Source: Myxococcales bacterium | GTDB taxonomy: Bacteria > Myxococcota_A > UBA9042 | Length of the DNA: 32,404 nt | Assembly (NCBI GenBank): GCA_023954815.1 | Contig: JAGSHB010000057.1 | Coordinates: 1-32,404 of the forward strand | Direction of reading: 5' to 3' | Shown: in pieces, positions 785 through 30,544 of the stretch | How positions within the stretch are numbered: position 1 is the first letter of the stretch | Layout: each line of letters begins with the position of its first letter | Position numbers and translations under genes: made by a program | The notes under the pieces: model-generated | Seen by the model: only the letters and a program-made list of their open reading frames with translations | Databases searched by the model: none | Told to the model about the DNA's origin: nothing

Positions 785-2242
785 ATGAGCCAGCTCACCT
801 TCTCTGCCAGTGCCGATGATTTGGCCGCCGTCGACCAGTTGATTGTCATTGGCCGCAGCGCCGATCTCGCTGCAGGCTGGCCCTTCGCTGATCTTCCCGC
901 CCATGTCGCGGATTGGGGCGCTCGCTTGGCGGCGGATGCGCGGCCGGGTCGTACCGGTGGTCCTGCGACGACCCTGCTCCCGTCCGGGGATGGCCCCAGC
1001 AAGCTGTCTGTGATCGCGCTGCACGACTCGGTGACACGCCACGTCAGTGACACACGCGCCGAAGAGATTTGGGGGCAGCTTCGTGGCTTGGCGAGCGGCT
1101 TGTCCGGTCAGGTCGGTGTCCTTGTTGCTATGGCCGATCCAGCCCACGCGCTCGGCGCTGCACTCGGTGTGGCTCGCTGCTTCCCGCTGTACAGCCGCAA
1201 GACGAAACCCAATAAATTGTCCGGCATTACGGTGGGATTGTGCCATTCCGGCGGCTGGATTACCGATACGACTGAGAGTGGCATCGCTGCGGACGCCATT
1301 CGCCTCACGCAGCGCGTCGTCGATATGCCGCCGGCAGAGCTCGACACCCAGACCTTCGAAAATGAGGCGCGTCAGGCGGTCGAGCACCTGCCCAACGTGA
1401 GCGTAACTAGTATCGTGGGCGACGACCTGCTCCAGGCAGGGCTCGGTGGTCTGCACGCTGTTGGACGCGCGGCAATGGTGGCTCCTCGCCTCGTCGTCCT
1501 CGACTACGAGCCCCCCGGAGCGACCGAGACGATCGCATTGGTGGGCAAAGGGCTGGTGTACGACACCGGCGGTCTCAGCCTGAAGATCGTTGGCGACCGC
1601 ATGCTCACGATGAAATGCGACATGGGCGGCGCAGGCGCGGTCCTAGGCGCTTTCACACTGCTAGCTCAGACCAAACTTCCCAAGCGTGTCATCGCTGTGC
1701 TGGCCATGGCTGAAAACGCCATTGGGCCCGACAGCTACCGCCCCGATGACGTCCTTAAGATGCACTCTGGCAAGACCGTGGAGATCAACAACACCGACGC
1801 CGAAGGTCGCCTCGCGCTGGCCGATGCGGCGAGCTTTGTGGCACGCGGTTACGAGCCTGCGGTCATCATCGAGGCAGCGACGCTGACAGGCGCGCAGCTG
1901 ATGGCTACCGGCAAGGCCCACGCAGGTATCTGCGCTACCGATGCCGACCTTGAGCAACGCGCTTTGGCCGCCGGACTCGCGACGGGCGATCACTGCCTCG
2001 CGATGCTCTGGAGCCCCGCGCACATGCGCGCCGAATTCAAAAGCAAGGTCGCTGACATGCGCAACTCTGTCGCCGATCGCATGAACGCGTCGTCGGCTGC
2101 TGCCGGATTCTTTGTCTACAGCCACATCGAAGACACCGGCTCACGCTTCTTGCACATCGACCTCGCTGGCCCGTCCTTCCGCGACAATCGCGCAACCGGC
2201 TACGGTGTTGGACTGATCACAGGTGTCGTGCGCGAGTTCTAG
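785..2242 (+). CDS. Leucyl aminopeptidase family protein (M17, NPEPL1-like)
   Basis: A two-metal cytosolic aminopeptidase of peptidase family M17, releasing N-terminal residues from peptides. The 485-residue product carries the family signatures: the metal/substrate lysine in VGKGLVYDTGG (K255), the metal ligand in MKCDMGG (D279), and the hallmark NTDAEGRL at 336-343. The context AENAIGP...SGKTVEINNTDAEGRL looks closer to the NPEPL1-like branch than to classical E. coli PepA. The ATG at 785 has AGGAG a few bases upstream. The frame stays open further left, but only by running through tRNA-Ala, so longer starts are rejected. An in-frame GTG at 779 is the only close alternative. It lies alone downstream of the tRNA terminator. 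Confidence 0.9.
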   Translation: MSQLTFSASADDLAAVDQLIVIGRSADLAAGWPFADLPAHVADWGARLAADARPGRTGGPATTLLPSGDGPSKLSVIALHDSVTRHVSDTRAEEIWGQLRGLASGLSGQVGVLVAMADPAHALGAALGVARCFPLYSRKTKPNKLSGITVGLCHSGGWITDTTESGIAADAIRLTQRVVDMPPAELDTQTFENEARQAVEHLPNVSVTSIVGDDLLQAGLGGLHAVGRAAMVAPRLVVLDYEPPGATETIALVGKGLVYDTGGLSLKIVGDRMLTMKCDMGGAGAVLGAFTLLAQTKLPKRVIAVLAMAENAIGPDSYRPDDVLKMHSGKTVEINNTDAEGRLALADAASFVARGYEPAVIIEAATLTGAQLMATGKAHAGICATDADLEQRALAAGLATGDHCLAMLWSPAHMRAEFKSKVADMRNSVADRMNASSAAAGFFVYSHIEDTGSRFLHIDLAGPSFRDNRATGYGVGLITGVVREF

Positions 2243-2388
2243 GCAGGTGGGAGCTATTTGTGCTCGCGCGGCAGACGTTGACCGAATCGCTCATCGGACG
2301 TAGCTGTGGAATTGCACATCACTTCGTTGAATTGCCTGTTCATTATTTCCACATGACGCTGTGCTGACGATACTGAGTCTCATAGACC

Positions 2389-2405
2389 GTGCGGTCCGTC
2401 CGCAC
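2389..2405. promoter_or_regulatory. Inverted repeat, possible activator site
   Basis: A perfect 6-base inverted repeat GTGCGG-N5-CCGCAC is centred about 100 bases upstream of the start site predicted from the -24/-12 promoter at 2474. That is a usual distance for an enhancer bound by a sigma-54 activator. No second copy was noticed nearby. Confidence 0.3.
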
Positions 2406-2473
2406 GACTATGATCCTCATTATAGATGTAATGTCATACGGATAAGAGAATCGCGCACCAACAGCTTTCGTCC

Positions 2474-2489
2474 TGGCACGGAACCTGCT
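2474..2489 (+). promoter_or_regulatory. Sigma-54 (-24/-12) promoter
   Basis: The sequence TGGCACGgaacCTGCT matches the RpoN consensus TGGCACG-N4-TTGCW at all but one position, with the required GG-N10-GC spacing. It lies about 50 bases before the ATG of the Cys-rich protein, giving a predicted leader of roughly 35-40 bases that contains a good GGAGG. An inverted repeat upstream could serve as the enhancer. Confidence 0.6.
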
Positions 2490-2536
2490 CTTGTAAGGTT
2501 CCGACATCGGCGGCCATGCCGCCTGGAGGATGAGCG

Positions 2537-3841
2537 ATGCGACCCATGAATTGGACCCTCTCTGTAGCGCTGCTGTGTAGCGCTGCTGTTATCACAACGG
2601 CATCTCCCGCTTCCGCGCTGTCTTCGTGCGGCAAAGATAGCGACTGCAAGACAGCTGGGGACGTCTGTCACGGCGGCACTTGCCTACCGAAAACGAAACA
2701 GTGCAAAGCCGACACGGACTGCAGTAGCCACGAAGCGTGCGACATGACATGCCCGCACGGTGGGTCGGCAACCAGTACGACGGTCTCTGTTCCGCCGTCG
2801 GAGACCGGCACGGCGACGGATGGAGAGGGCCAGTCAGGTAGCGATGACTCGAAGTCTGAAGATGGCGAAGAAGCTGGCGGCAGCGGCTCCAGCGGCAGTG
2901 CTTCAAGTGGCAGTGGCTCGGCAAGCGGTTCCGGCGGCAGCGCATCGAGCGGCGACGGAGGCGGCACGAGCAGCGTGAAAGCCTGCCCCAAGGAGGTCGG
3001 CGTCTGCGTGGCATCTATCAAGAAGGTAAAAGCTGACGCACAGTGCCAGAGCTTTTGCGCGGCCGCCGCCAAATGTGGCGGGATGACCGGAGGCTCGAGC
3101 TCGAGTTCCTCGTCGGGCGGCACCGCAACGCCAAGCCCCACGCCGGCACCCGATACAGAGGGCAGCTCGGGGAGTGATGCCACCGACACCCCACCGAGCA
3201 GTGGTGCAGGCAGCGGCGCAACCCCGCCGTCGAGCGGCGGCGCCGACGATGCCAACGGCGATGACGACGGCGAACCGTCGTCCGACGGTGAGAAGAAAGA
3301 CGCCGACGCTGACAAGAAGGCTCCAGACGGTGAAGCGACGGACACCAAGACCACCGTAGACACCGGCGCGTGCGAGTTCATGTGCGCTGTTATCAAGTTG
3401 GAAAAAGTCGCTGAGAGTGAGTTTCAGGCCGCGGTCAAATGCGTGACGGACAACGCGAGCAAGACCTGCAACGACATCGAAAAGACATGCGACAAGGAGT
3501 TCGACGCTGTCGATGACGCCATGAAGAAAGATGGGGACAAGCTTCAAGTTGCCCTCGCTGGTGGATTCGGTGGCAGCGAGGCATCGCTGAGCGGGACCGC
3601 TCGGAATAATGAAGACGACAAGAGCACTGGTGGCACAAACACGTCAGGAGATGGCGGGCAGCCAGCGTCTTCGGAGGCCGCTGGTAACGGCGCTGCCGCA
3701 GGCGCGGGTGGCGCGACGGGCTCGGCGGCAGCATCTGGCGGGTGCACGGCTGGATTTGCTCCGCGCAATGGCGCCACTGGCTTGATGATCGTGTTCATGC
3801 TGCTCTGTGGCGCGGTGCTCTTGCGACGCCAAGAGAGCTAG
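2537..3841 (+). CDS. Secreted Cys-rich, Ser/Gly/Asp-rich protein with MYXO-CTERM-like tail
   Basis: A 434-residue exported protein of unknown function. Residues 1-27 form a Sec signal peptide ending ASPASA. Next comes a short disulfide-type module with the repeated pattern DSDC...GDVC..GTCL and DTDC..HEAC, as found in many myxobacterial surface proteins. Long low-complexity Ser/Gly and Asp/Glu/Pro linkers separate further cysteine clusters (about residues 150-180 and 275-320). The end is GGC (Cys403), a hydrophobic helix at about 414-428, then RR. That Cys-helix-Arg layout resembles MYXO-CTERM sorting tails, though only one Cys is present. The ATG has GGAGG 7 bases upstream. A sigma-54 promoter precedes it and an intrinsic terminator follows. 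It is probably surface-anchored; no enzymatic motif was seen. Confidence 0.8.
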   Translation: MRPMNWTLSVALLCSAAVITTASPASALSSCGKDSDCKTAGDVCHGGTCLPKTKQCKADTDCSSHEACDMTCPHGGSATSTTVSVPPSETGTATDGEGQSGSDDSKSEDGEEAGGSGSSGSASSGSGSASGSGGSASSGDGGGTSSVKACPKEVGVCVASIKKVKADAQCQSFCAAAAKCGGMTGGSSSSSSSGGTATPSPTPAPDTEGSSGSDATDTPPSSGAGSGATPPSSGGADDANGDDDGEPSSDGEKKDADADKKAPDGEATDTKTTVDTGACEFMCAVIKLEKVAESEFQAAVKCVTDNASKTCNDIEKTCDKEFDAVDDAMKKDGDKLQVALAGGFGGSEASLSGTARNNEDDKSTGGTNTSGDGGQPASSEAAGNGAAAGAGGATGSAAASGGCTAGFAPRNGATGLMIVFMLLCGAVLLRRQES

Positions 3842-18217: not shown

Positions 18218-18556
18218 ATGCGCATTATCGACAAACCCTGGGGCCACGAAGAGATTTGGGCCGAAACCTCCCGTTATGCGGGAAAGTTTCTCATTATCCG
18301 CGCCGGGGAAGAACTCTCTCGCCAGTACCATGAGAAGAAAGAAGAGACGATCTGCGTGCTCAGTGGAAAGCTGCGCCTGGAGATCGGAGCGAGCCCCAAT
18401 ATCGAGATCCGCTACCTCGACCCGAATGAGTCATTCCACGTCAAACCGGGAACTGTGCATCGTTTTTGTGCCGATGAGGTGGACGTAAAGCTCGTCGAAG
18501 TGAGCACGCCAGAGCTGGACGATGTGGTTCGGCTTGAGGATCGCTACGCACGGTAA
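18218..18556 (+). CDS. Single-domain cupin, type II phosphomannose isomerase-like
   Basis: A 112-residue cupin. PWGHEEIW at the start, SRQYHEKKEETICVLSGKLRL (34-54) and PGTVHRF (77-83) match the C-terminal domain of mannose-6-phosphate isomerase/GDP-mannose pyrophosphorylase proteins. The usual first HxH is Q36-x-H38, with E42/E43 and H81 as further likely metal ligands. It may be a free-standing sugar-phosphate isomerase or a sugar-binding cupin. AAGGAG lies 11 bases before the ATG. Confidence 0.82.
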   Translation: MRIIDKPWGHEEIWAETSRYAGKFLIIRAGEELSRQYHEKKEETICVLSGKLRLEIGASPNIEIRYLDPNESFHVKPGTVHRFCADEVDVKLVEVSTPELDDVVRLEDRYAR

Positions 18557-18713: not shown

Positions 18714-21700
18714 ATGTCCGACGCAACACCGACGACGCTGCAGGCCCCAACGCAAGACGACATTGCGAAGCTGATCGCTCACCTGCGAGACGATCAGACC
18801 CTTGAGGTTCGCTCTGAGGTGGCCGATCGGCTGGTCGTTTTGGCCGCCCGAGAGCCCCATGAGCGCGCGAAGGGAGCCCTCCTAGAGCGGGCAGCCAATT
18901 TGGTCGGTGAGGAAGACCCCGAACGCGAGTTGCTCCTGTTGCGGGAGTCATTTCGCCATTACCCCAGGTATGGGGTGGGTGTACGCCTGTGTGAGATCGC
19001 CGCAGACGATGAATCTCTCGCCCAACTCGGTCGACTTGGCCAGCTATTCGACGCGGTCGCTGCACTCGCCCCGACGGACGAGCGACCATGGGCGCAGCTG
19101 CGTGCCGCGCGAGCCCATGTGGAGCAAGGCCACGGTCAATTGGCGCTCGCCGCCCTGAAAGCGCTCGGCGATCCGATGGATGCCATGGGGGACGAGCCCA
19201 AAGAGCTACGCGAGATTGCGGAGTCACAGGTGCAGGATCGTCACGAGATGTTGACGGCCAAGCGTATGGAAATCGCGGAAGCGACCGACGGAGAGCGCGG
19301 TACGGTCCTGCTGGAGTACGCCCAGCTATTGCTCGCCGGAGACGAACCTCTCGCCGATGCGAGCGCTGTCCTCGCCGACGCGATTGAGGCCGGCGCCGAC
19401 GCTGAGGAAGCAGCCCCACTCTGGGCTGAGGTGGCGCGAGCGGTCGGGGACTGGACCATGCTCGGGCGAGCATTGGCGGCCTCTCTCGGCTGTGATCAAC
19501 CCATGCATATCCGCCTTCGTACGGCGGATGAACTCGCCAATCGTCCTGGCATCGATCGCGACCAGCCCAGCGTTGCCCGCCAGGCGCTCGAGGTGTTGGC
19601 AGAAGCCCTGCCCGACGACCTGGGGGTGCGCAGTCGGCTTCTCGCCCTCTCTGCCATCGATGGCGACGAAGGTGCGGCTCACCAACTGGATCAACTGCGA
19701 CTCCATACCGTCAAAGAACGGGACCGCGATGGCGAAGCGGTCGTTTGTCTGGCGCTCGCGCGGGTGTCGATCGCCGCCTCAGAGACGGCTCAGGCCGAGC
19801 GCTATATGCGCCGCGTCCGCGCGCTTGATCCCCGCAACGGCGAGGCGCTCGACTTCTTTGAGACCCAATTTCGCGACAACGGCGACACGAAACGACTGTA
19901 CATGGTGCTCAGTCACCGGCTCCCCGGGGCGACCGGCTCAGGGGCTATTCGGATCGCCTCGGACATGGCCGCGCTGGCCGAAAACGACATGGACAGCCCG
20001 GAGCGCGCCATCGAGGCTTGGCAACGGGTGCGAGGCATCGATACGCGCCACACGGAAGCGGATGCAGCACTCGAAAGGCTGTATCGCCAGACGAGCCGCT
20101 GGTCTGAACTCCGCGATGTTCTCGTACGGCAAAGCGAGCGTGCCAAAGATGCTGGTGACAATGCAGCCCTGGCCGACATTCTAGCGCGCCGTGCGGCACT
20201 GCATGGGCCGGATGCGGGGTTGGCCGAGCCTGCTGTTTCTCTTGCGCTGTGGCGACGTGTCGCATCGTTGGCACCCGAACGTGACGGCATCGATGACGCG
20301 CTCGATAGTGCACTGCGGGGCGTGCGCGCGTGGCCTGAGCTGGCTGAACGCTTGGCTGGGCGGCTGAGCGACGAAGCTGCTGCGCTGCCATCGGCAAGGG
20401 CGCTGCTGGCCCTGACGACCGAACAGCATGACGATCCAGCCCTGGCGGCGAAAGCCCTCGATGCGCTCGTGCAAGGGCGGACGGCTGATGGCGACGACGA
20501 CGCACTCATCGAAGCGACGGCGCGGCAACTGGGAGAAGATAAGCACCTGCTAACCGCCTTGAGCTGGCGTCGTCCCTCGGTTGATGGCGACGATGCGGTG
20601 GAGCTACTGGAAGAGGCTGGCGCACTCGCTGCATGGGCGCTGGATGATAAACCGCGCGCGATTAAGCTCTTTGAAGATCTGCGATCACTCAAACCATCCC
20701 ATCCGGCAGCGCTTCGCGGGCTGAGCCGTCTATTTGCGGGCGAAGAAAAGTGGGCTGAGCAAGTCGAAGTGATTGGCCAACTGCTGAAAGCCAAACGCCT
20801 ACCCGATGAAGATCGCGTGCAACTCCTCGGGGAATTGGCGACGGCCCATGCCGACGGTCTCGGGGACTTGGACGCGGCGGTTGCCGTCATCGAACAGCTG
20901 TCAAAGTTGGCGCCGGAATCTCCGGTGGTCGCCGATGTGCAACGTCGGTCGGCGGTGGCCCGCGGGGATCTCGCAGGTCTGCGGCAAGCCCTTCCCAAGG
21001 GCGCCGACGGTGCTGCGACCTACGTCGAACAGCTCGAAACCATCGCTGCTGGGCTTGAGGGAGTCCTGGCGGTAGCGCCATTGCGTGCTGCTGCTGATGC
21101 TGCGGACAAAGAACTCAACAACGCCGAGCGCGCAGTCGAACTGTGCGGCCTAGCGCTCCTCCACACCTCCGACAGCGAAGATGATGCGCTTGCGACGGCC
21201 GTGGCAAACGAGTTGCTCGCGCTCGCAAAGAAAGCCGATGACGACGCGTGGACCGAACAAGCGCTCAGCGTCCTAGCCACCCGCGGGTCCGACAAGGCAG
21301 CGACCCACCGGCTGATGGCCGCACGGGCGGAGAATCGCGACGATTGGGAAGAAGCGCGGTCAGCATGGGAATTGGCGCTCCAAGAGTCGGAGGAATCAAC
21401 CGAACTCGTTAGCGACAGTGAGCGGCTATGCGATGCAGCCGAGCGCGCGGGCCAAGCATCGGGGGTCGTCGTACTGATCGCGGCGGCAGCCAAGCGGCAC
21501 ATGGCGGCCGCGCCAGACGATGCAAAGGCAGCCCTGGTGGCAGCCGTAGCGTGGGCGGCTGCCGACGGTGTCGACCTCGAAGAAGCACAGTCAGCGGTGG
21601 ACGCAGCGCTCGACGGCGGCGAAGACGCCGACCTGTTGCACGTACGAGAGCTGGTGCTCATCGAGCGTGGCGCGTGGGCTGAGGTTGTCGAGACCCTGGA

Positions 21701-24700
21701 AAGGGCGGCGAGCCTTCAAACAGACGAAGAGCGGGTGGAGACCCTGCGGCGCGCCGCAGGCATCTGTGACGGTGGACTGGACGACGCAAAGACCGCCGCG
21801 CGACTGTACGCTCTGGTCGTCGAACTATCGCCCGATGACATCGAGGGCTGGACGCTGCGACTCGCCGCTTGCGAGCGCGTGGCCGATGATTCCGGGACCC
21901 TGGCGGCTCTGGACGCTTTTTTGGCGACGAGCATTGGCGACCGGCGAACGAGAGCGAGCGCAACGGTGCGCCGCATCGAACTGACCGATGGCGACGATCA
22001 CGACACGGTGATTGCGCTTGCAGGCCCGGTGCTTGCAGGAATCACTGCCGATCCCCCCCTTCACGACGACGAGGAGCTGGTCCTGGCCGTGATCACCGGC
22101 CGGCTCGACATCGAGTCATGCGCTAAGGAGGCGGCGGCTATCGTCTCGCCTGCTGCGCGCACGCTGAACCGCTGGGACGACGTTCTCCGTTGCGTAGAAA
22201 TTCTCAGTGCAGACGTGGAGCCGGGTAGTGCCGCGCACATCAGCAGCCTGCTCGATCAAGCCGAGCTTGCCCACGCCCATGCCGACGACGGCGCGACTGC
22301 GATCGCGAAAGCAAAGGAAGCGGTGGCGTTGGCGCCCGACGCCTTGGAGTCTTGGGCACGCGCATTGCTCATCGCGGATGCCCGCAAGAACAAGGAGCTC
22401 GACGGCGCGCTGGATCTCGCTGCTGGCCTCAATGGGGGAAACAAACGCCGCGCGTCGCTGCTGCACATCGTTGCCGGTCGCGCTGCTGACGCGGATGACA
22501 CCGACCGCGCCATCGCCGCCTGGGGAGCGCTCAAAGACCACGATCCTACCACCCCCGAAGCGTACGACATGCTGGAGATGCTCTACCGAGAGGCCGCCGA
22601 TCTCGACAGCATCGCCCTGCACATGACTGAACGGCTCGACGCGAAGGTCACTGATGATGATCGCGAACTTGTGTGGCTCCGGTTGGCGCAACTGCACGCA
22701 GACGAACGCCAGGAACAGGCAGAAGCCATTGACACGCTTCACCTCGCAGTCCTGGAGTTGCCAAAGTCGGAGGCCTTGTGGGCCACGCTGCTCGATACGG
22801 TACGGGGCGACAACCCGGCCACGATCAAAGCCCTGCAAGCGCGCCTAGCCACGCTGGGTGAGACAGACGACGACGCGGATACGGCTGAACTGTGCCACCG
22901 CGAGCTGGCCGACCTGCTCGATGAGGACCGCGCCGCGGAGGCAACTGCCCACTGGGCCGCTGTGCTGACCCGCTGTCCGGAGGACGAAGACGTCGCTGCC
23001 CGAGCTGCGGCCAATCTGCTGGCCCAAGCCGATCCAGGGCTACCCGCCGAGGTCCTCGAGACCGCGGCGCTGGTCAGTGACCACCTGAAGACACAGGGGC
23101 AGGACGAGCTGCTGGATGCCTTGCTCTTGGCGTGGGCCGGTGGGGTGGCGCCCGAGGCTGCGACCGCGCTGTTTGTCCGGCGGGCCGAACATGCGGCGGA
23201 CGCTCAAACCGCGTTCAATCGACTTGCTGAAGGCCTGCTGGCGCTGCCGGGGAACGCTACTCTCGTCGCTGCCCTGGATGAGCTAGAGGGCGCAATTGCC
23301 CCGGATATTCGGGCAGAAGCGTGGTCTGAAGCCGCAGCTGCAGTGAGCTCAGATGCGGCGCGCGCGCCGCTGACGCTGAGATCGTTGAAGGCCCGGGTGG
23401 CAGTCGATGATCAACGGGACGCCGGGCTTGAAGCCTGGCTCGCACTCTGGCGTTCGGCGCCAGCGTCCGGCGACTTCGACGGTCTCGTTGCTGCACTGGG
23501 TGCGGCGGGCCGCCAAGAGGAGGCTCGCGCGCTGCAGTTGGAGCGACTCGACGACGCGCCTGATGGCGTGGATGTGCGCACCGAGCGGGTCAAACTGGCT
23601 GAGACGTTCGCAGCATCGGGTAATTCGGCGGCAGCGAGTGCCCAGTGGCAGCAGCTGGTATTGGCCGATCCAACCGATGCGGAGGCGGTCGCAACTCTGC
23701 GCAAACTCGCGTCAACAGACCCTGAGCGAGCCGATACGCACGAATGGCTAGCCGCGATCGCCAACGGCATCGAGGACGCGTCGACACGTGCGACCTACCT
23801 GCAAGAGTTGGCAGAACACGCACTTGAGCGAGAAGCTTGGACGCAAGCGGCTGATGTGCTCGACACGGTATTGGCGGAGGCCCCGGCCAACGCGGACGCT
23901 TTCGCGCTGCGCGACTTGGCCCTCGGTAGCATGGCCCCGGATCAAGCCGGTCCACGTCTGGCCACCCACCTCACCGAAGCGATTCAAAGGGCCGGCGATG
24001 AGCCTGAGCGCCGTATGATTCGATTGCGTTTGGCCGACCACGAGGCGTCCCATGGCGCCGGTGCCGAAGCTGCGTTGGCTGTGGTCCACGCTGCTTTCTT
24101 GGAAGCCCCCAACGACGAGCGCGCTGACCTACTGACGCTGGCCGTGCACATGGGCGAAGGCGCGGATGCCCCGTCAGCACTACTCGAATTGCTGCGTGAG
24201 GGCAGCGGAAGTGATGACAAAGCACTCGCAAGCCAGGCACTCCGAGCCATGGCAGTCACAGAGACCGACGCAGACGACGGAGCGACAGCGGCATTGAAAG
24301 CGATCGCGATCGCCGAACAAGACGGTGACGACGCCATGCTGCAGCACGTCTGGGACGCAGGTGCCCGAAGTCCCGCGCTCGTCGACGCACTGCTCGCTCG
24401 TGCCAAGGACGACGAATCCCGCGTTCGCGTGGCCCGGTTGGCGACCGAAGCCTGCGGTGCCGCCACGAAAGACAAGTGGCTAAAAACCTGGATTTCCGCC
24501 GCGCCAGACGATCTTGCACCACTGGCGGCTCGTTTTGCGCTCAAACCGAGCGACGCCAAGCGCTGGAAAGCATTGAGTGCCCATGCCAGCGCACCGGAGC
24601 TCATCCTGGACGCGCTGCTGGGCTCTCTGGAGTTGGCGAGCACACCGGCTTCACAGGCTGCGGTATTGACCCATGCGGCGGAGTTGGCCGCGGCATCAAA

Positions 24701-27700
24701 CGAGCATGAAACAGCGGCTGCCTACGCTGGTATGGCCCTGGAGCACGGCGCCAACGAGCAGCTTCAAGACCTGCGCCGCGGCTGGCTGATGAAGGCGGAA
24801 GCCTACGACGAACTGGCAGAACTCCTCGAGTCCGAGGCCGAATCTACAGACGACGCGGACACCAAAATTGCCCGCCTAGACCAAGCAGCGGACTTGTGGC
24901 TCAACCGCCTGGACGACGCCGGTCGCGCGTCCAAGCTGCTGGCGCTCATGCAGGAACTGTCGCCTGACAATCCGGCGCTGGCGGTACGTAAAATAGCGGT
25001 GCAGCGTGCGGCTGGTGACGCGGACTGGGCTGCGGCTGCGATCGCAGCTGTAGGCAAGAAGACCACAACCAATGGACTGGCTCTCGCCATCGCGGCCCAC
25101 CTGCAGAACGGCGACATCGATTCAGCTTTCACGCTGAGCGAGCGCGTCGCTGCGGACGGCTCATTGCGTGCGCTCGGCGATACGCTCGACGAGTTGGGCG
25201 AGCAGGCCGACCTGCTGTCTGCCGAGCAAGCTCGCAAGGTGCTGAGTTGGCAGCTAGGTGAACTGGACGCCGCGACAGCCCCACAGCGATGGGCGTCGCT
25301 GAAACTGCGTTGGCTGACCCAAAGCGACGACGTCGCCGATCAGCTGCAAGCTTTGGACGACTTGGTCGAACACGCCATGGGGCCGCTGGACGATCCGTCC
25401 CTCGCGCTGGATTGGATTGTGCGCGCCTTGTTGCTCGACCCAACAGCACGCGATCGGGCAACTTTGACGTTGGCCCTCGCTGAGACGCCTGACCAGCAAG
25501 AGATGGCCTTCGACGCGGTTCGCGAATCACTCACCACAGCGGGAGGCGATCAGGACGCGGATCTTGCGGTCTTTGCAGCACTGCTCGATGTGGACGTGCC
25601 GGGCACGGCGACCGCCGAGCTCCTGGTGACGCGCGGTCGTGCCGATTCCGCATTTGCGACGGCGGCGCTCAACTCCTTTGCCGATCAACTGACCGAACGC
25701 CAACTTCATGCCGCGCTGATTGGGTTGCGGCGTGCTGCGTTGGCGGGTACCTCCGGCCACCACCGGGTGAGCGGACTGATCGATCTGGCCGACGGTGTGG
25801 CACAGCAAGGCGATGTAGACGGCGCCATCCACGCGTTGCTCGACGGTTGCCCAGACGTGCGCGATCCCGAAGCCCTGATCGAACGAGCCCAAGCTCTCGC
25901 TGAGTCCGCGAACAACCCCGCCGCCTTCGTGGATGCCGTGGAGATGGGCCTTGGAGGCCGTCTGTCCGAAAAACCGGCTGTTGAGCAGCAGCTGATCTCC
26001 GCAGCGGCAGGCTGCGCGGCTGGTGAACTCGACGATGCGGCCAGGGGTGCAGACCTTTACAACCGCTTGTGGGAACGCGACCCGGATGACATCGACGCCA
26101 GAGATGCGGTGCTGGCTTTCCGACGCGCAGCTGGCGACACGGACAGGCTAGCCGATGACCTGGATCGGGCGATCCTCGATGGCGGAGATGGCACCCTGGA
26201 GTTGCGAACGGAGTTGGCTGGACTACTGCTCGATCAAGGCGACCGCGCGGACGAAGCCCTGCGTCATCTCAAGGCGGTTTTGCGCAAAGACGCCGCAGAT
26301 TCGGACGCAACGGCCGTACTTGAGCGTCTCGCTGACCATCGCAAGCATGGTGTTCCTGCACTCACACAGCTCGAAACCGCCTACCGAGCGCAAGGTGATT
26401 TCGACCAGGTGGCCACCTCTCTTCAGCGGCACATCGCGCGACTGGGGTCGGATACGGCGGCACACCGGCAACTGGAGTCGCTGGCCGAGGTGCTCGAAAG
26501 CCAATTGGCGGCTCCGGGTCGCGCCGCGCAGGTCTACGCACGGCTGGTCCTCATCAAGGCAACCACGGCGAGAGTGCGCAAGCTGCTCAAATTTGCGCCG
26601 GAGGCCGACCACACGCCGCAATTGGGTAGCGCCCTGGAGGCGACCCTAGGCACCAAGCTGTCGGATAAGGATCGCGCGACGGTGATGGGGCTGCTGTTGC
26701 GCGGCGCGGACACCGGCGAAGATGCCTCTGAGACGGAGACTCGCCTGCGCCAACTCATCGCCCTCCAACCCGACAACGAGCAGGCCTGGGACCAGTTGGA
26801 TGAGCTGCTGGAAACGGATAATCGTTGGCCCGATTTGGTCGCGACACTGAAGCAGCGGGTCGAATTGACCTCGTCACCGGAGATGAAGTTTGCCCTGCAA
26901 AATCGGCTGGCCGGTATGGCGAGAGCGAGCGGCCTCATCGAGGAAGCTGTCGCGGCCTACGAAGCACTGAGTGAGCTCGATCCAACCAGCCCCGACGCCT
27001 TGGAAGCGTTGGTAGAGCTGTTGGCGGAGGGCGACACGCAGGCCTACTGCGATGCGCTCGCACGTTGGGCTGAACGACTGCCGAAGAACAGTGCACCCCG
27101 TTGCGCTGCATTGCTCCGGGCGGCTCGCCTGTGTGCCAATGAGCTCGCCAATCCGGCGCGGGCGACGGAGCTCTATCAGAGCGCGTTCGATACCTTGCCA
27201 TCGGACGATGAGTCATTCCGCTTCTTGGAGCGGCAGGCCAACGGCGATCCGCAGACATTGCTGCGCATCTACCGCCGCCGTGCAGAGGGTGTCGAAGGAG
27301 GTCCAGCGCGAACGATCGTTCTCCGGCGACTGGCTGCGGTGAGCGTGGAGTTGGGCAAACATGATGAAGCCCGCGCTGCGCTGGCAAAGGCGGCTGAGAA
27401 CGACCCGAATAACGAAGCGCTGCAGCGCGAAATGATCGAGGTGTGCGAGGATGCCGGTGACATTGCTGGCTTTCAGCGAGCAGCTGCGCGCAGGCTTGAG
27501 GGCGATATTCCGAGAGTCGAGCGCGTGATGCTGACGCGAAAACTGGCACACAATGCCGTAGAGCAGAACGAGGATGCCGATCGTTGGCTCACGGCCTTGG
27601 AGGCCCTGTCTCCGACCGATCCAGACCTCGTGACGTGGCGTGCCATGGTGCAAGCCCGCAGTGAGGACCCGGAGACGGCCGCCAAGGGCATTGAGCGTGT

Positions 27701-28529
27701 CCTTGCCCAGTCCATTGATGCGAAACAGCGGGTTGCGCTGCTCTGGCGGCTGGCCGATCTGTACACGGGCGCGCTCGATCGCCCAATGCAGGTGCTCAAT
27801 GCTTTGCAGCGGTTGCTCAAGGTCGAGCCGGGCCACTGGGATGCGAACGAAAAGCTATGCACGCTCTACGCAGCCCGGGGTAGTCAGGAGGCGCTGGCCG
27901 AGAGTTTGCGCCACTGGGCCGATGCCATTGAACCAACTGACATCAGTCGCGCGGTTGTGCTGGCGCAGCTCGGCGGTGCGTATCTGCAGCTCAATCAGGG
28001 TGAAGACGCGCGAAAGGCACTCGAAGAAGCGTATGCGCTCGACGCCAAAAACATCGAGATCAATCAGCCACTGGCGATGGTCTGGACGACAGCGGGCAAG
28101 TTTGAAGAAGCCGCCGACCTGCAAGCCTGGGTTGTGGAGCAGCTCCACCGTACCCGTCAGCGCGAACGGCTGCCTGCGGCGGCGGCGCGCGCTGGGATGC
28201 TGTGTGAGCGGATCGGCCGGAACGAAGAGGCACGCAAGCATTATCGAACCGCTCTCAAGGGCACGAAGGGCGACATCGACGCGACCCTAGGCCTTGGACG
28301 TGTGAGTGCGGCCCTGGGCGATGATACGCGGGCGCTGGCAGAGTTTGAGCGGGTCGCTGCGATGGGGTCTCAGCGCGCATCTGCGGCCAACCGTTCCGAG
28401 GCGCTGCTCAATATCGGTCTGCTGCACAAGAAAAGCGGGCGCCGAACTCAGGCGCGCAATGCCCTGAACCGCGCGCTGGAGCTCAAGCCCGACTTGCGAG
28501 AAGCAGTGGCGGCGCTCGCGGACCTGTAG
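18714..28529 (+). CDS. Giant TPR/alpha-solenoid repeat protein (3271 residues)
   Basis: One uninterrupted frame encodes about 340 kDa of almost purely helical, Ala/Asp/Glu/Leu-rich sequence. No signal peptide, membrane helix or catalytic motif is seen. Loose repeats of 34-38 residues, often paired into modules of about 70-80, recur from end to end. Their pattern is a W-x-E/A-L helix, then R-A/x-L, then A-x-x-L/Y...L-x-P-D/x-x-x-A. Examples are GRNEEARKHYRTAL and the final RRTQARNALNRALELKPDL; canonical TPRs are clearest after about residue 2750 and more diverged before. The likely role is a cytoplasmic scaffold. GAGGAG lies just before the ATG. Neighbours (cupin, argC) give no functional hint. 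Similar large TPR proteins occur in Myxococcota, mostly without known function. Confidence 0.88.
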   Translation: MSDATPTTLQAPTQDDIAKLIAHLRDDQTLEVRSEVADRLVVLAAREPHERAKGALLERAANLVGEEDPERELLLLRESFRHYPRYGVGVRLCEIAADDESLAQLGRLGQLFDAVAALAPTDERPWAQLRAARAHVEQGHGQLALAALKALGDPMDAMGDEPKELREIAESQVQDRHEMLTAKRMEIAEATDGERGTVLLEYAQLLLAGDEPLADASAVLADAIEAGADAEEAAPLWAEVARAVGDWTMLGRALAASLGCDQPMHIRLRTADELANRPGIDRDQPSVARQALEVLAEALPDDLGVRSRLLALSAIDGDEGAAHQLDQLRLHTVKERDRDGEAVVCLALARVSIAASETAQAERYMRRVRALDPRNGEALDFFETQFRDNGDTKRLYMVLSHRLPGATGSGAIRIASDMAALAENDMDSPERAIEAWQRVRGIDTRHTEADAALERLYRQTSRWSELRDVLVRQSERAKDAGDNAALADILARRAALHGPDAGLAEPAVSLALWRRVASLAPERDGIDDALDSALRGVRAWPELAERLAGRLSDEAAALPSARALLALTTEQHDDPALAAKALDALVQGRTADGDDDALIEATARQLGEDKHLLTALSWRRPSVDGDDAVELLEEAGALAAWALDDKPRAIKLFEDLRSLKPSHPAALRGLSRLFAGEEKWAEQVEVIGQLLKAKRLPDEDRVQLLGELATAHADGLGDLDAAVAVIEQLSKLAPESPVVADVQRRSAVARGDLAGLRQALPKGADGAATYVEQLETIAAGLEGVLAVAPLRAAADAADKELNNAERAVELCGLALLHTSDSEDDALATAVANELLALAKKADDDAWTEQALSVLATRGSDKAATHRLMAARAENRDDWEEARSAWELALQESEESTELVSDSERLCDAAERAGQASGVVVLIAAAAKRHMAAAPDDAKAALVAAVAWAAADGVDLEEAQSAVDAALDGGEDADLLHVRELVLIERGAWAEVVETLERAASLQTDEERVETLRRAAGICDGGLDDAKTAARLYALVVELSPDDIEGWTLRLAACERVADDSGTLAALDAFLATSIGDRRTRASATVRRIELTDGDDHDTVIALAGPVLAGITADPPLHDDEELVLAVITGRLDIESCAKEAAAIVSPAARTLNRWDDVLRCVEILSADVEPGSAAHISSLLDQAELAHAHADDGATAIAKAKEAVALAPDALESWARALLIADARKNKELDGALDLAAGLNGGNKRRASLLHIVAGRAADADDTDRAIAAWGALKDHDPTTPEAYDMLEMLYREAADLDSIALHMTERLDAKVTDDDRELVWLRLAQLHADERQEQAEAIDTLHLAVLELPKSEALWATLLDTVRGDNPATIKALQARLATLGETDDDADTAELCHRELADLLDEDRAAEATAHWAAVLTRCPEDEDVAARAAANLLAQADPGLPAEVLETAALVSDHLKTQGQDELLDALLLAWAGGVAPEAATALFVRRAEHAADAQTAFNRLAEGLLALPGNATLVAALDELEGAIAPDIRAEAWSEAAAAVSSDAARAPLTLRSLKARVAVDDQRDAGLEAWLALWRSAPASGDFDGLVAALGAAGRQEEARALQLERLDDAPDGVDVRTERVKLAETFAASGNSAAASAQWQQLVLADPTDAEAVATLRKLASTDPERADTHEWLAAIANGIEDASTRATYLQELAEHALEREAWTQAADVLDTVLAEAPANADAFALRDLALGSMAPDQAGPRLATHLTEAIQRAGDEPERRMIRLRLADHEASHGAGAEAALAVVHAAFLEAPNDERADLLTLAVHMGEGADAPSALLELLREGSGSDDKALASQALRAMAVTETDADDGATAALKAIAIAEQDGDDAMLQHVWDAGARSPALVDALLARAKDDESRVRVARLATEACGAATKDKWLKTWISAAPDDLAPLAARFALKPSDAKRWKALSAHASAPELILDALLGSLELASTPASQAAVLTHAAELAAASNEHETAAAYAGMALEHGANEQLQDLRRGWLMKAEAYDELAELLESEAESTDDADTKIARLDQAADLWLNRLDDAGRASKLLALMQELSPDNPALAVRKIAVQRAAGDADWAAAAIAAVGKKTTTNGLALAIAAHLQNGDIDSAFTLSERVAADGSLRALGDTLDELGEQADLLSAEQARKVLSWQLGELDAATAPQRWASLKLRWLTQSDDVADQLQALDDLVEHAMGPLDDPSLALDWIVRALLLDPTARDRATLTLALAETPDQQEMAFDAVRESLTTAGGDQDADLAVFAALLDVDVPGTATAELLVTRGRADSAFATAALNSFADQLTERQLHAALIGLRRAALAGTSGHHRVSGLIDLADGVAQQGDVDGAIHALLDGCPDVRDPEALIERAQALAESANNPAAFVDAVEMGLGGRLSEKPAVEQQLISAAAGCAAGELDDAARGADLYNRLWERDPDDIDARDAVLAFRRAAGDTDRLADDLDRAILDGGDGTLELRTELAGLLLDQGDRADEALRHLKAVLRKDAADSDATAVLERLADHRKHGVPALTQLETAYRAQGDFDQVATSLQRHIARLGSDTAAHRQLESLAEVLESQLAAPGRAAQVYARLVLIKATTARVRKLLKFAPEADHTPQLGSALEATLGTKLSDKDRATVMGLLLRGADTGEDASETETRLRQLIALQPDNEQAWDQLDELLETDNRWPDLVATLKQRVELTSSPEMKFALQNRLAGMARASGLIEEAVAAYEALSELDPTSPDALEALVELLAEGDTQAYCDALARWAERLPKNSAPRCAALLRAARLCANELANPARATELYQSAFDTLPSDDESFRFLERQANGDPQTLLRIYRRRAEGVEGGPARTIVLRRLAAVSVELGKHDEARAALAKAAENDPNNEALQREMIEVCEDAGDIAGFQRAAARRLEGDIPRVERVMLTRKLAHNAVEQNEDADRWLTALEALSPTDPDLVTWRAMVQARSEDPETAAKGIERVLAQSIDAKQRVALLWRLADLYTGALDRPMQVLNALQRLLKVEPGHWDANEKLCTLYAARGSQEALAESLRHWADAIEPTDISRAVVLAQLGGAYLQLNQGEDARKALEEAYALDAKNIEINQPLAMVWTTAGKFEEAADLQAWVVEQLHRTRQRERLPAAAARAGMLCERIGRNEEARKHYRTALKGTKGDIDATLGLGRVSAALGDDTRALAEFERVAAMGSQRASAANRSEALLNIGLLHKKSGRRTQARNALNRALELKPDLREAVAALADL

Positions 28530-28585: not shown

Positions 28586-28670
28586 ACGTGGCTAGGTGGC
28601 GCCGTCGGATCCACCATCCGTGCCTAGATCGCCCCCAAGCGCGCGCCCAGCTCGCCCCCAGGAGACTTCA

Positions 28671-29726
28671 ATGAACGGACGCAAGCGCGCCGCCATCATC
28701 GGCGCTACCGGCTATGGCGGAGCGGAGCTCCTGCGGCTTCTGCTCGCCCACCCCCACATCGAGATCACGCGTATCGCTGCCAAGAGCGAGATCGGTGTGC
28801 GTATCGATCAGCTCAACCCTGCGCTCAGAGGGTTTACCGACCTGATCGTCGAGGACGCGCCGCCGGCCGACATCGCTAAGGACGCGGACGTTGTCTTCCT
28901 CGCCCTGCCCCACCGCGTCAGCGCGCTCATCGGCGCCGAATACGTGGCGCTGGGCGTTAAAGTGGTCGACCTCAGCGGCGACTGGCGACTGCTCGATGCA
29001 GAGCTCTACTCTCGCTACTACGGCGTGAGCCATCCCTTCCCTGAGCGGCTCGGCTCCTTCGTCTATGGCATGCCCGAGATGAATCGCGAGGCCATCGCCT
29101 CGGCCGACCACGTGGCGAGTCCTGGGTGCTTTGCGACCGCGACCACCCTCGCGCTACTGCCTTTTGCACGCGCCGGGTTGTTGAACGGTCGCGTCCATGT
29201 CAGCGCGATGACCGGCTCGTCCGGCTCCGGGGTGCGCGCCTCAGCGGGAACCCATCACCCGGTTCGCGCGGTCAACCTGAAGCCCTACAAACCCCTAGTC
29301 CACCAACACACGCCGGAGATTGAACAGAGCCTGCATCTCTCCGGGGCACCGAACCTGACGATCGACTTTGTACCTGTGTCCGCACCGCTGTCCCGCGGGA
29401 TTTTGACCACTTGCTTCTTCGAGGTGCCGGCAGCGGTCGAGCCGTCAGCTATTGTTGCGGCGCTCGACGACTGCTATGGCGACGAATCGCTCATTCGCAT
29501 CATCAAGACGGGCTTGCCGCAGGTCGCCAGTATCAAGGGCTCCATCTACTGCGATGTGGCTGTGTCCGTCGGCGAGACGGTGGTCGATGGTCGCAGGACG
29601 GTCGTCGCCCATTCAGCCTTGGACAATCTGGTGAAAGGCGGTGCGGGGCAGGCGGTCCAGGCGATGAACCTCATGCTCGGCTTCCCTGAGGGCTGCGGCA
29701 TCTCAGCGCAACCGTTGTGGCCATGA
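28671..29726 (+). CDS. argC: N-acetyl-gamma-glutamyl-phosphate reductase
   Basis: NADPH-dependent reduction of N-acetylglutamyl phosphate to the semialdehyde, step three of arginine synthesis. The 351-residue protein has GATGYGGAELLRLL (11-24) for NADP binding, active-site Cys153 in ASPGCFATA, and the conserved HQHTPEI (211-217). The stretch SAGTHHPVRAVNLKPYK recalls the LysY-like subgroup acting on LysW-bound substrates, so a lysine or LysW-dependent arginine role is possible. No LysW carrier gene is in the window. The ATG has AGGAGA upstream. Its stop overlaps argB by 4 bases (ATGA). Confidence 0.9.
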   Translation: MNGRKRAAIIGATGYGGAELLRLLLAHPHIEITRIAAKSEIGVRIDQLNPALRGFTDLIVEDAPPADIAKDADVVFLALPHRVSALIGAEYVALGVKVVDLSGDWRLLDAELYSRYYGVSHPFPERLGSFVYGMPEMNREAIASADHVASPGCFATATTLALLPFARAGLLNGRVHVSAMTGSSGSGVRASAGTHHPVRAVNLKPYKPLVHQHTPEIEQSLHLSGAPNLTIDFVPVSAPLSRGILTTCFFEVPAAVEPSAIVAALDDCYGDESLIRIIKTGLPQVASIKGSIYCDVAVSVGETVVDGRRTVVAHSALDNLVKGGAGQAVQAMNLMLGFPEGCGISAQPLWP

Positions 29727-30544
29727 AACGCCGAAATGTCCTCGTAAAGATAGGCGGCGCGACCCTGATACAGCCAGCGGATCGCGCGCTCATCGCCCGG
29801 GATCTCAAGGCGGTCGCAGCCCAGGGGCATAACCTATGTGTCGTCCATGGTGGCGGTCCGCAGGCGACGGCGCTCGCGCGCCAACTGGGTCATGAGCCCA
29901 CGTTTCGTGGTGGCCGGCGGGTCACGGATGCGGCGATGCTGGACATCGTCAAGATGGCGCTCGTCGGCGAAGCGGGAACCAACTTGCTGGCTGCGTGCCT
30001 AGGCGAAGGCGTGCAGGCGGTCGGTCTCTCCGCGTCGTCGGGTCGTTGGGTCACGGCAAAGCGCCGACCTCCGCGCCTCGTTGCTGGGGAGTCCGAGGCG
30101 GTCGACTTCGGCTACGTCGCAGATGTCGAAAGCGTTCATCCCAAGCTACTGCAGACTCTCTGGGCAGGCGATTTTGTGCCGGTGCTGTCATCTGTTGTCA
30201 TCGACGATGCCGGGCAACCGCTCAACCTGAATGCGGACACGCTGGTGCGCAGCCTGTGTGAGGCGATGCCCTTTGACGATGTCTTCTTCGTGGCGGACGT
30301 GCCGGGTGTCTTCGAGGACCTCGCTCGCCCTGAGAGCCACATCCCGAGCCTGCGTACGGATCAAGTTCCGGAGCTCATCGAGGCGGGAGTCGTGCAGGGC
30401 GGCATGATCGCCAAGTTGACGGAAATGACGAGAATCGTGGGTGCCGGCGTGGCTTCCGTCTGGATTGTGGGGCTGCACGAAGACGCGCCAGTCTCCTCGG
30501 CACTCAGTGGTCAAGCAGGTCTACGTACCCAGTTGAGCGCGTAG
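29723..30544 (+). CDS. argB: Acetylglutamate kinase (amino-acid kinase family)
   Basis: Phosphorylates N-acetylglutamate (or a LysW-linked analogue) just before the ArgC step. The 273-residue protein has LVKIGG (7-12, Lys9), VHGGG (41-45), GGRRVTDAAML (63-73), NLNADTL (168-174), DVPGVF (192-197) and QGGMIAKL near 234. The C-terminal HxxLxExF stretch common in ArgB is replaced by EDAPVSSALSG, nearer to the LysZ-like end. The start is the ATG embedded in the argC stop (ATGA); no separate strong ribosome site is seen, indicating coupling. Confidence 0.87.
   Translation: MKRRNVLVKIGGATLIQPADRALIARDLKAVAAQGHNLCVVHGGGPQATALARQLGHEPTFRGGRRVTDAAMLDIVKMALVGEAGTNLLAACLGEGVQAVGLSASSGRWVTAKRRPPRLVAGESEAVDFGYVADVESVHPKLLQTLWAGDFVPVLSSVVIDDAGQPLNLNADTLVRSLCEAMPFDDVFFVADVPGVFEDLARPESHIPSLRTDQVPELIEAGVVQGGMIAKLTEMTRIVGAGVASVWIVGLHEDAPVSSALSGQAGLRTQLSA

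Follow-up and report, generated by a model that had tools for sequence, protein, structure and literature searches.

The closest described counterpart of the protein analysed here is GltI/AgmK (MXAN_4863, Q1D2V1) of Myxococcus xanthus, a TPR protein of 4132 aa with neither signal peptide nor transmembrane segment, whose gene adjoins gltJ in the published G1 cluster (order gltD-E-F-G-H-I-J; PMC3169522). In gliding, GltI is described as a large inner scaffold linking the AglQ motor, via GltG, to the MreB track (PMC13104615). Few components of the myxobacterial gliding machinery are as poorly understood. Our analysis concerns a window of 32,404 nucleotides, the whole of the stretch studied (contig JAGSHB010000057.1, assembly GCA_023954815.1, Myxococcales bacterium; GTDB lineage Myxococcota_A, UBA9042), which encodes a giant TPR protein (hereafter the window protein; Table 1). 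Sequence comparisons place it as a strongly diverged member of a clade, A, for which no characterised member was found in the literature searched. What is new here is this A-clade sister of the GltI/AgmK lineage, together with a double-TPR module of 72–76 aa as the evolutionary unit of the giants.

A single giant reading frame and its relatives

The gene starts with ATG and stays open over its entire length with zero internal stops, giving a product with a calculated molecular weight of 350 kDa and a pI of 4.6. The GC content at the three codon positions (about 0.77/0.48/0.69) is constant from one end of the frame to the other. When the gene was compared with its two nearest relatives, identity was 0.60–0.83 at codon positions 1 and 2 and 0.34–0.42 at position 3, and this held in each part of the gene, the variable middle among them; positions 1 and 2 being far better conserved than position 3 everywhere, the whole length is evidently selected as one protein. 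Searches with the first 600 residues recovered one single-copy giant frame in every well-assembled genome of the same family, at 42–69% identity. Full loci fetched from 15 of these genomes each contain one stop-free frame (3011–3894 aa) that aligns full-length with the window protein at 28–58% identity, and independently assembled public contigs show the same single giant frame.

The original prediction of a single 9.8-kb frame is thus upheld by the intact reading frame, the uniform codon-position GC and the single frames of 15 relatives. It had named as its own refuting case a frameshift or assembly error that fused separate genes. As those relatives, from independent assemblies, carry uninterrupted frames of comparable length, and the coding signal is uniform along the frame, we give this next to no credence and reject the chimera or frameshift reading.

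Table 1. Features of the giant gene and its immediate neighbours (coordinates within the window)
Feature	Coordinates	Strand	Remarks
Cupin (mannose-6-phosphate isomerase C-terminal family)	18218..18556	+	112 aa; 158 bp upstream of giant
Giant TPR-solenoid protein gene (A-clade, GltI-related)	18714..28529	+	3271 aa
Residues 1–460, N-terminal region	18714..20093	+	most invariant columns in family; all-helical
Residues 334–3271, tandem ~72–76-aa double-TPR modules	19713..28526	+	repeat profile
Residues 1850–2350, least conserved, up to 64% gaps among relatives	24261..25763	+	family alignment
Residues 2450–3271, second conserved block	26061..28526	+	family alignment, profile register
argC-like semialdehyde dehydrogenase	28596..29726	+	67 bp downstream of giant
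argB-like amino acid kinase	29717..30544	+	downstream of argC-like gene

Conservation along the giant is bimodal, with two well-conserved terminal blocks and, towards the C-terminal one, a section variable in both sequence and length, within which repeats have been gained and lost. Neither a single-sequence scan of genome contigs nor a scan of viral contigs returned relatives of the window protein, and none was found in phages. The window protein appears to be a family-specific, fast-diverging version of the ancient Myxococcota A lineage.

The repeat module and the predicted fold

In Pfam searches of the window protein only TPR families scored above cut-off (TPR_8, 56.1 bits with a cut-off of 25.7; TPR_2, 53.3 and 27; TPR_1, 46.4 and 27.8). 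Its N-terminus is hydrophilic, with no signal peptide, and no 19-residue Kyte–Doolittle window reaches 1.6, leaving no membrane helix. All of this agrees with the original description of a protein lacking export signal, enzyme domain and membrane anchor, and its sequence is that of a cytoplasmic protein.

Self-match offsets in the A and B giants (B being the second clade described below) fall near 75, 150, 225, 300 and further multiples of ~76, and half periods are nearly empty; the signal is weaker in the window family than in the A and B giants. The multiplied unit is therefore a two-TPR, four-helix module, and the near-absence of half-period offsets in the A and B giants rules out the 34-residue unit as the evolutionary repeat, which is instead a double-TPR module of ~72–76 aa. 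We built a repeat profile of 68–69 positions, trained on A and B giants only and with the window protein excluded (consensus 'E.a.dpeer..ll.rlA.lyeerLgdpd.Aieay.raLeldP.d.eal.aLerLye..erw.eLaevL'). It returned 38 candidate modules in the window protein, of which 25 had iE<0.01, whereas 100 block-shuffled copies of the same protein yielded none; among the A and B giants listed it found 42–52 strong copies each. Some forty small helical modules, each of two hairpins, follow one another in the very long window protein, with no module recognisable by the profile in the first ~330 residues.

The distribution of modules departs from the picture first drawn, of 2700 diverged residues followed by cleaner TPRs at the C-terminus. 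Clean modules are not limited to that end: strong ones also occur at residues 407–470, 622–686 and 1242–1302, and the stretch weakest as TPRs, of ~460 residues at the N-terminus, is nevertheless among the best conserved between relatives. The internal expansion proposed from that picture stands as ancient repetition and falls as recent duplication. Self-BLAST of the window protein with default settings returned nothing, so that a segment-wise comparison was needed, in which the best internal protein matches reached 25–32% identity; with that identity, and no DNA-level repeats in the gene beyond chance, recent internal duplication is ruled out. A shift of ~1000 columns in the A profiles and a similar self-match shift of ~1044 residues in the window protein may reflect an ancient block duplication.

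AlphaFold2 models built from family alignments were all-helical and confident for residues 1–1000 (mean pLDDT 89.2) and 2222–3271 (mean pLDDT 89.0), with median hairpin periods of 37.0 residues in the N part and 35.5 in the C part; hydrophobicity autocorrelation peaks at lags 34 and 37. Low pTM values (0.48 and 0.39, respectively), as expected for long solenoids, make the overall curvature of the models unreliable. For the two thirds modelled, the predictions support a helical solenoid that runs on without a break, and the profile search finds repeat modules in residues 1001–2221, between the two models. Of the solenoid originally proposed, the TPR-like character holds throughout and the continuity holds for the modelled two thirds.

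Two clades of giants in Myxococcota

A frame of this kind had initially been called rare, which is wrong for the phylum. HMM searches found giants in over half of 141 Myxococcota genomes, and among the matches listed at least 40 other Myxococcota genomes carry two separate giant TPR ORFs of 3300–4700 aa, pairs being usual; the genome counts of the A and B models are not independent, as each model also matches the other clade. Combined BLAST and profile comparisons split the giants into clades A and B. The longest-ORF picks at two loci (L151 and L176) were excluded, being unlike any giant and lying opposite the mapped giants. In one genome a single contig (G128, C44) bears three giant TPR ORFs of 3874, 4215 and 4018 aa (222172–223878, 684731–686140 and 717293–718855). 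A Myxococcota giant gene is also present in a record titled 'Klebsiella pneumoniae isolate MaH-04nov19-278' (L069, CAMDBH010000014.1), a title that looks mislabelled.

The B giants lie, in conserved clusters, behind genes of GltE, CglF and GltG type (NCBIfam) and a TPR lipoprotein gene, and at one locus (L165) the next gene after the B giant is GltJ-like, its product having a zinc ribbon, a GYF domain and an AgmX-type tail. All these Glt-named neighbours score below the NCBIfam curated equivalog cut-offs and are termed '-like' for that reason. Since this gene order matches the published G1 cluster, we take B as the GltI/AgmK clade, an identification made by synteny only. B giants extend ~570 residues beyond the A-type end. 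These last residues (for example L054:4283–5209) are conserved and do not look like TPRs, and they include an 'ELAF.IGK.LTYF' helix which, by eye only, is degenerate-metalloprotease-like. Many B giants have an rsmI-like gene directly after them (L047, L051, L057, L060, L171, L173–L175, L181, L184 and L185); rsmI encodes 16S rRNA methyltransferase I. Downstream of A giants, genes with an MXAN_5187 C-terminal domain occur at L048:612–2333, L059:631–2343 and L056:493–2280 (the last below cut-off), and at L161:16105–20000 an A giant stands divergent beside genes resembling a TolQ/TolR/TolA/TolB operon.

To which clade the window protein belongs was examined by comparing the profile of its family with those of A and B segment by segment. 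N-terminal columns 33–499 align with A columns 69–533 (score 298; other registers ≤190), and C-terminal columns 2802–3286 align with A columns 3341–3820, at the very end (score 410; other registers ≤291), so that the last ~470 residues line up, in register, with the outermost C-terminal part of the A giants. The in-register match at both ends was reproduced in a second comparison. Against the B profile, the N-terminus of the window family preferred no register and the C-terminus matched columns about 2680–3150, well short of the B end, so that the extra ~570 residues of B are missing from the window protein. In a tree of the C-terminal block, B was monophyletic (100/99), and a branch with support 96/90 set the family and the A giants of its class apart from every B giant and the remaining A giants. 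On the in-register ends and this tree we assign the window protein to the A clade. Its best BLAST match to A or B giants is about 140 bits, and with similarity this low the orthology rests on profile register and the tree of one block. With B equated to GltI/AgmK by gene order, clade A would be sister to the GltI/AgmK lineage, which makes the window protein a distant sister of GltI; that it is GltI itself is ruled out by gene location, clade and the missing C-terminal extension.

Gene context, proposed role and comparison with known systems

A search with the B model found no B-type match in any of 14 family genomes, nor, at E 1e-30, in the window genome. No giant scaffold other than the A-type one was found in this family, which, by the same gene-order identification, appears to have lost GltI itself. 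The family keeps a locus with CglF-like, GltG-like and TPR-lipoprotein genes. In the window genome this locus (L200:7291–10094; G000 contig C307) is on a contig separate from the giant gene, with the GltG-like gene at L200:7650–9218; the locus was also found at L201, L202 and L203. In the four loci checked the GltG-like protein lacks an FHA domain, which is present in those scanned from B-carrying genomes. The two losses coincide in a small sample and are possibly correlated, which would fit the published GltI–GltG partnership (PMC13104615).

One way to read this pattern is that the A giant has replaced the lost GltI and works with what remains: the CglF/GltF-like protein, the FHA-less GltG-like protein and the TPR lipoprotein. 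The persistence of the locus where every B-type match is gone would suit such a replacement, as would the four GltG-like proteins, unlike those of B genomes, in which docking looks as if it had changed. We nevertheless consider it unlikely. A and B coexist elsewhere, implying an older, separate role for A; in the window's family the A gene is unlinked to the glt locus; and the GltG-like proteins, at 145–171 bits, score far under the curated cut-off of 650.

The immediate neighbours point in another direction. A cupin gene lies upstream of the giant on the same strand in 16/16 family loci, and, among the 15 loci whose contigs reach far enough downstream, the window included, argB follows in all and argC in 13. 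Co-expressed with these genes, the giant could serve arginine synthesis, either by holding the enzymes together as a scaffold or by regulating them, as might be expected from short gaps on one strand (Table 1) and from an order kept in 15–16 family loci despite ~30% identity between the giants. Conserved gene order can also persist by inertia, however, and we know of no scaffold requirement for ArgC or ArgB. Above all, in the loci read, neither argC nor a cupin gene adjoins the A genes of other families. Because these neighbours are not common to the A-clade relatives, a role in arginine metabolism is a possible but less likely one, and we rate it as more doubtful still than replacement of GltI.

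Taken as a whole, the window protein is probably best explained as a GltI-like giant cytoplasmic alpha-solenoid scaffold of tandem two-TPR modules. A long, acidic, cytoplasmic TPR superhelix with conserved ends and an elastic middle is what would be expected of a scaffold or spacer, and a cytoplasmic scaffold role is likely. Working like GltI, as a long, acidic and flexible superhelix, the protein would bind fixed partners through its conserved N- and C-terminal blocks, and its variable middle would set the length of the scaffold. Most likely, by analogy with its sister lineage, it would dock cytoplasmic components of a machine associated with the envelope or the cytoskeleton.

More tentatively, and in a reading more probably wrong than right, Myxococcota may possess two ancient scaffolds: GltI for gliding, and an A-type sister that perhaps organises a second cell-length or envelope-linked machine, with the window's family having dropped GltI and the FHA domain of GltG and running on A alone. 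If true, this family would be a natural experiment on the function of each giant. An equally widespread sister lineage, a common unit of 72–76 aa and a family that has the sister only and whose GltG-like proteins, in the loci checked, have lost the FHA domain offer a comparative handle on binding by giant scaffolds, and the repeat model can be used to annotate proteins labelled merely 'TPR repeat protein' in databases.

Among solved structures, the best Foldseek matches of the modelled parts are the eukaryotic TPR scaffolds IFT139 (IFT-A), Ski3 and Ctr9, likewise long TPR superhelices that serve as assembly platforms. Identity to the window protein is 10–15%, and TM-scores are about 0.1–0.2, low because the curvature differs; the likeness is one of common fold class, with no evidence of shared descent.

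Within Myxococcota, the window protein resembles GltI/AgmK in being a very large TPR protein devoid of signal peptide and transmembrane segment. With the GltI/AgmK-type B giants it has in common the repeat module, as recognised by HMM, and a homologous C-terminal solenoid block. It differs from GltI/AgmK in its gene location, outside the glt cluster (gltG/gltH/gltJ) and between a cupin gene and argCB, and from the B clade in lacking the C-terminal extension, having an A-type N-terminus and falling outside B in the tree. The A giants, at about 3500–4000 aa, are closest to it: both ends are in register, the module is the same and neither has extra domains. Compared with A giants elsewhere, however, the window protein is highly diverged, several hundred residues shorter and set among other neighbours, with argCB downstream where some A genes have an MXAN_5187-domain gene.
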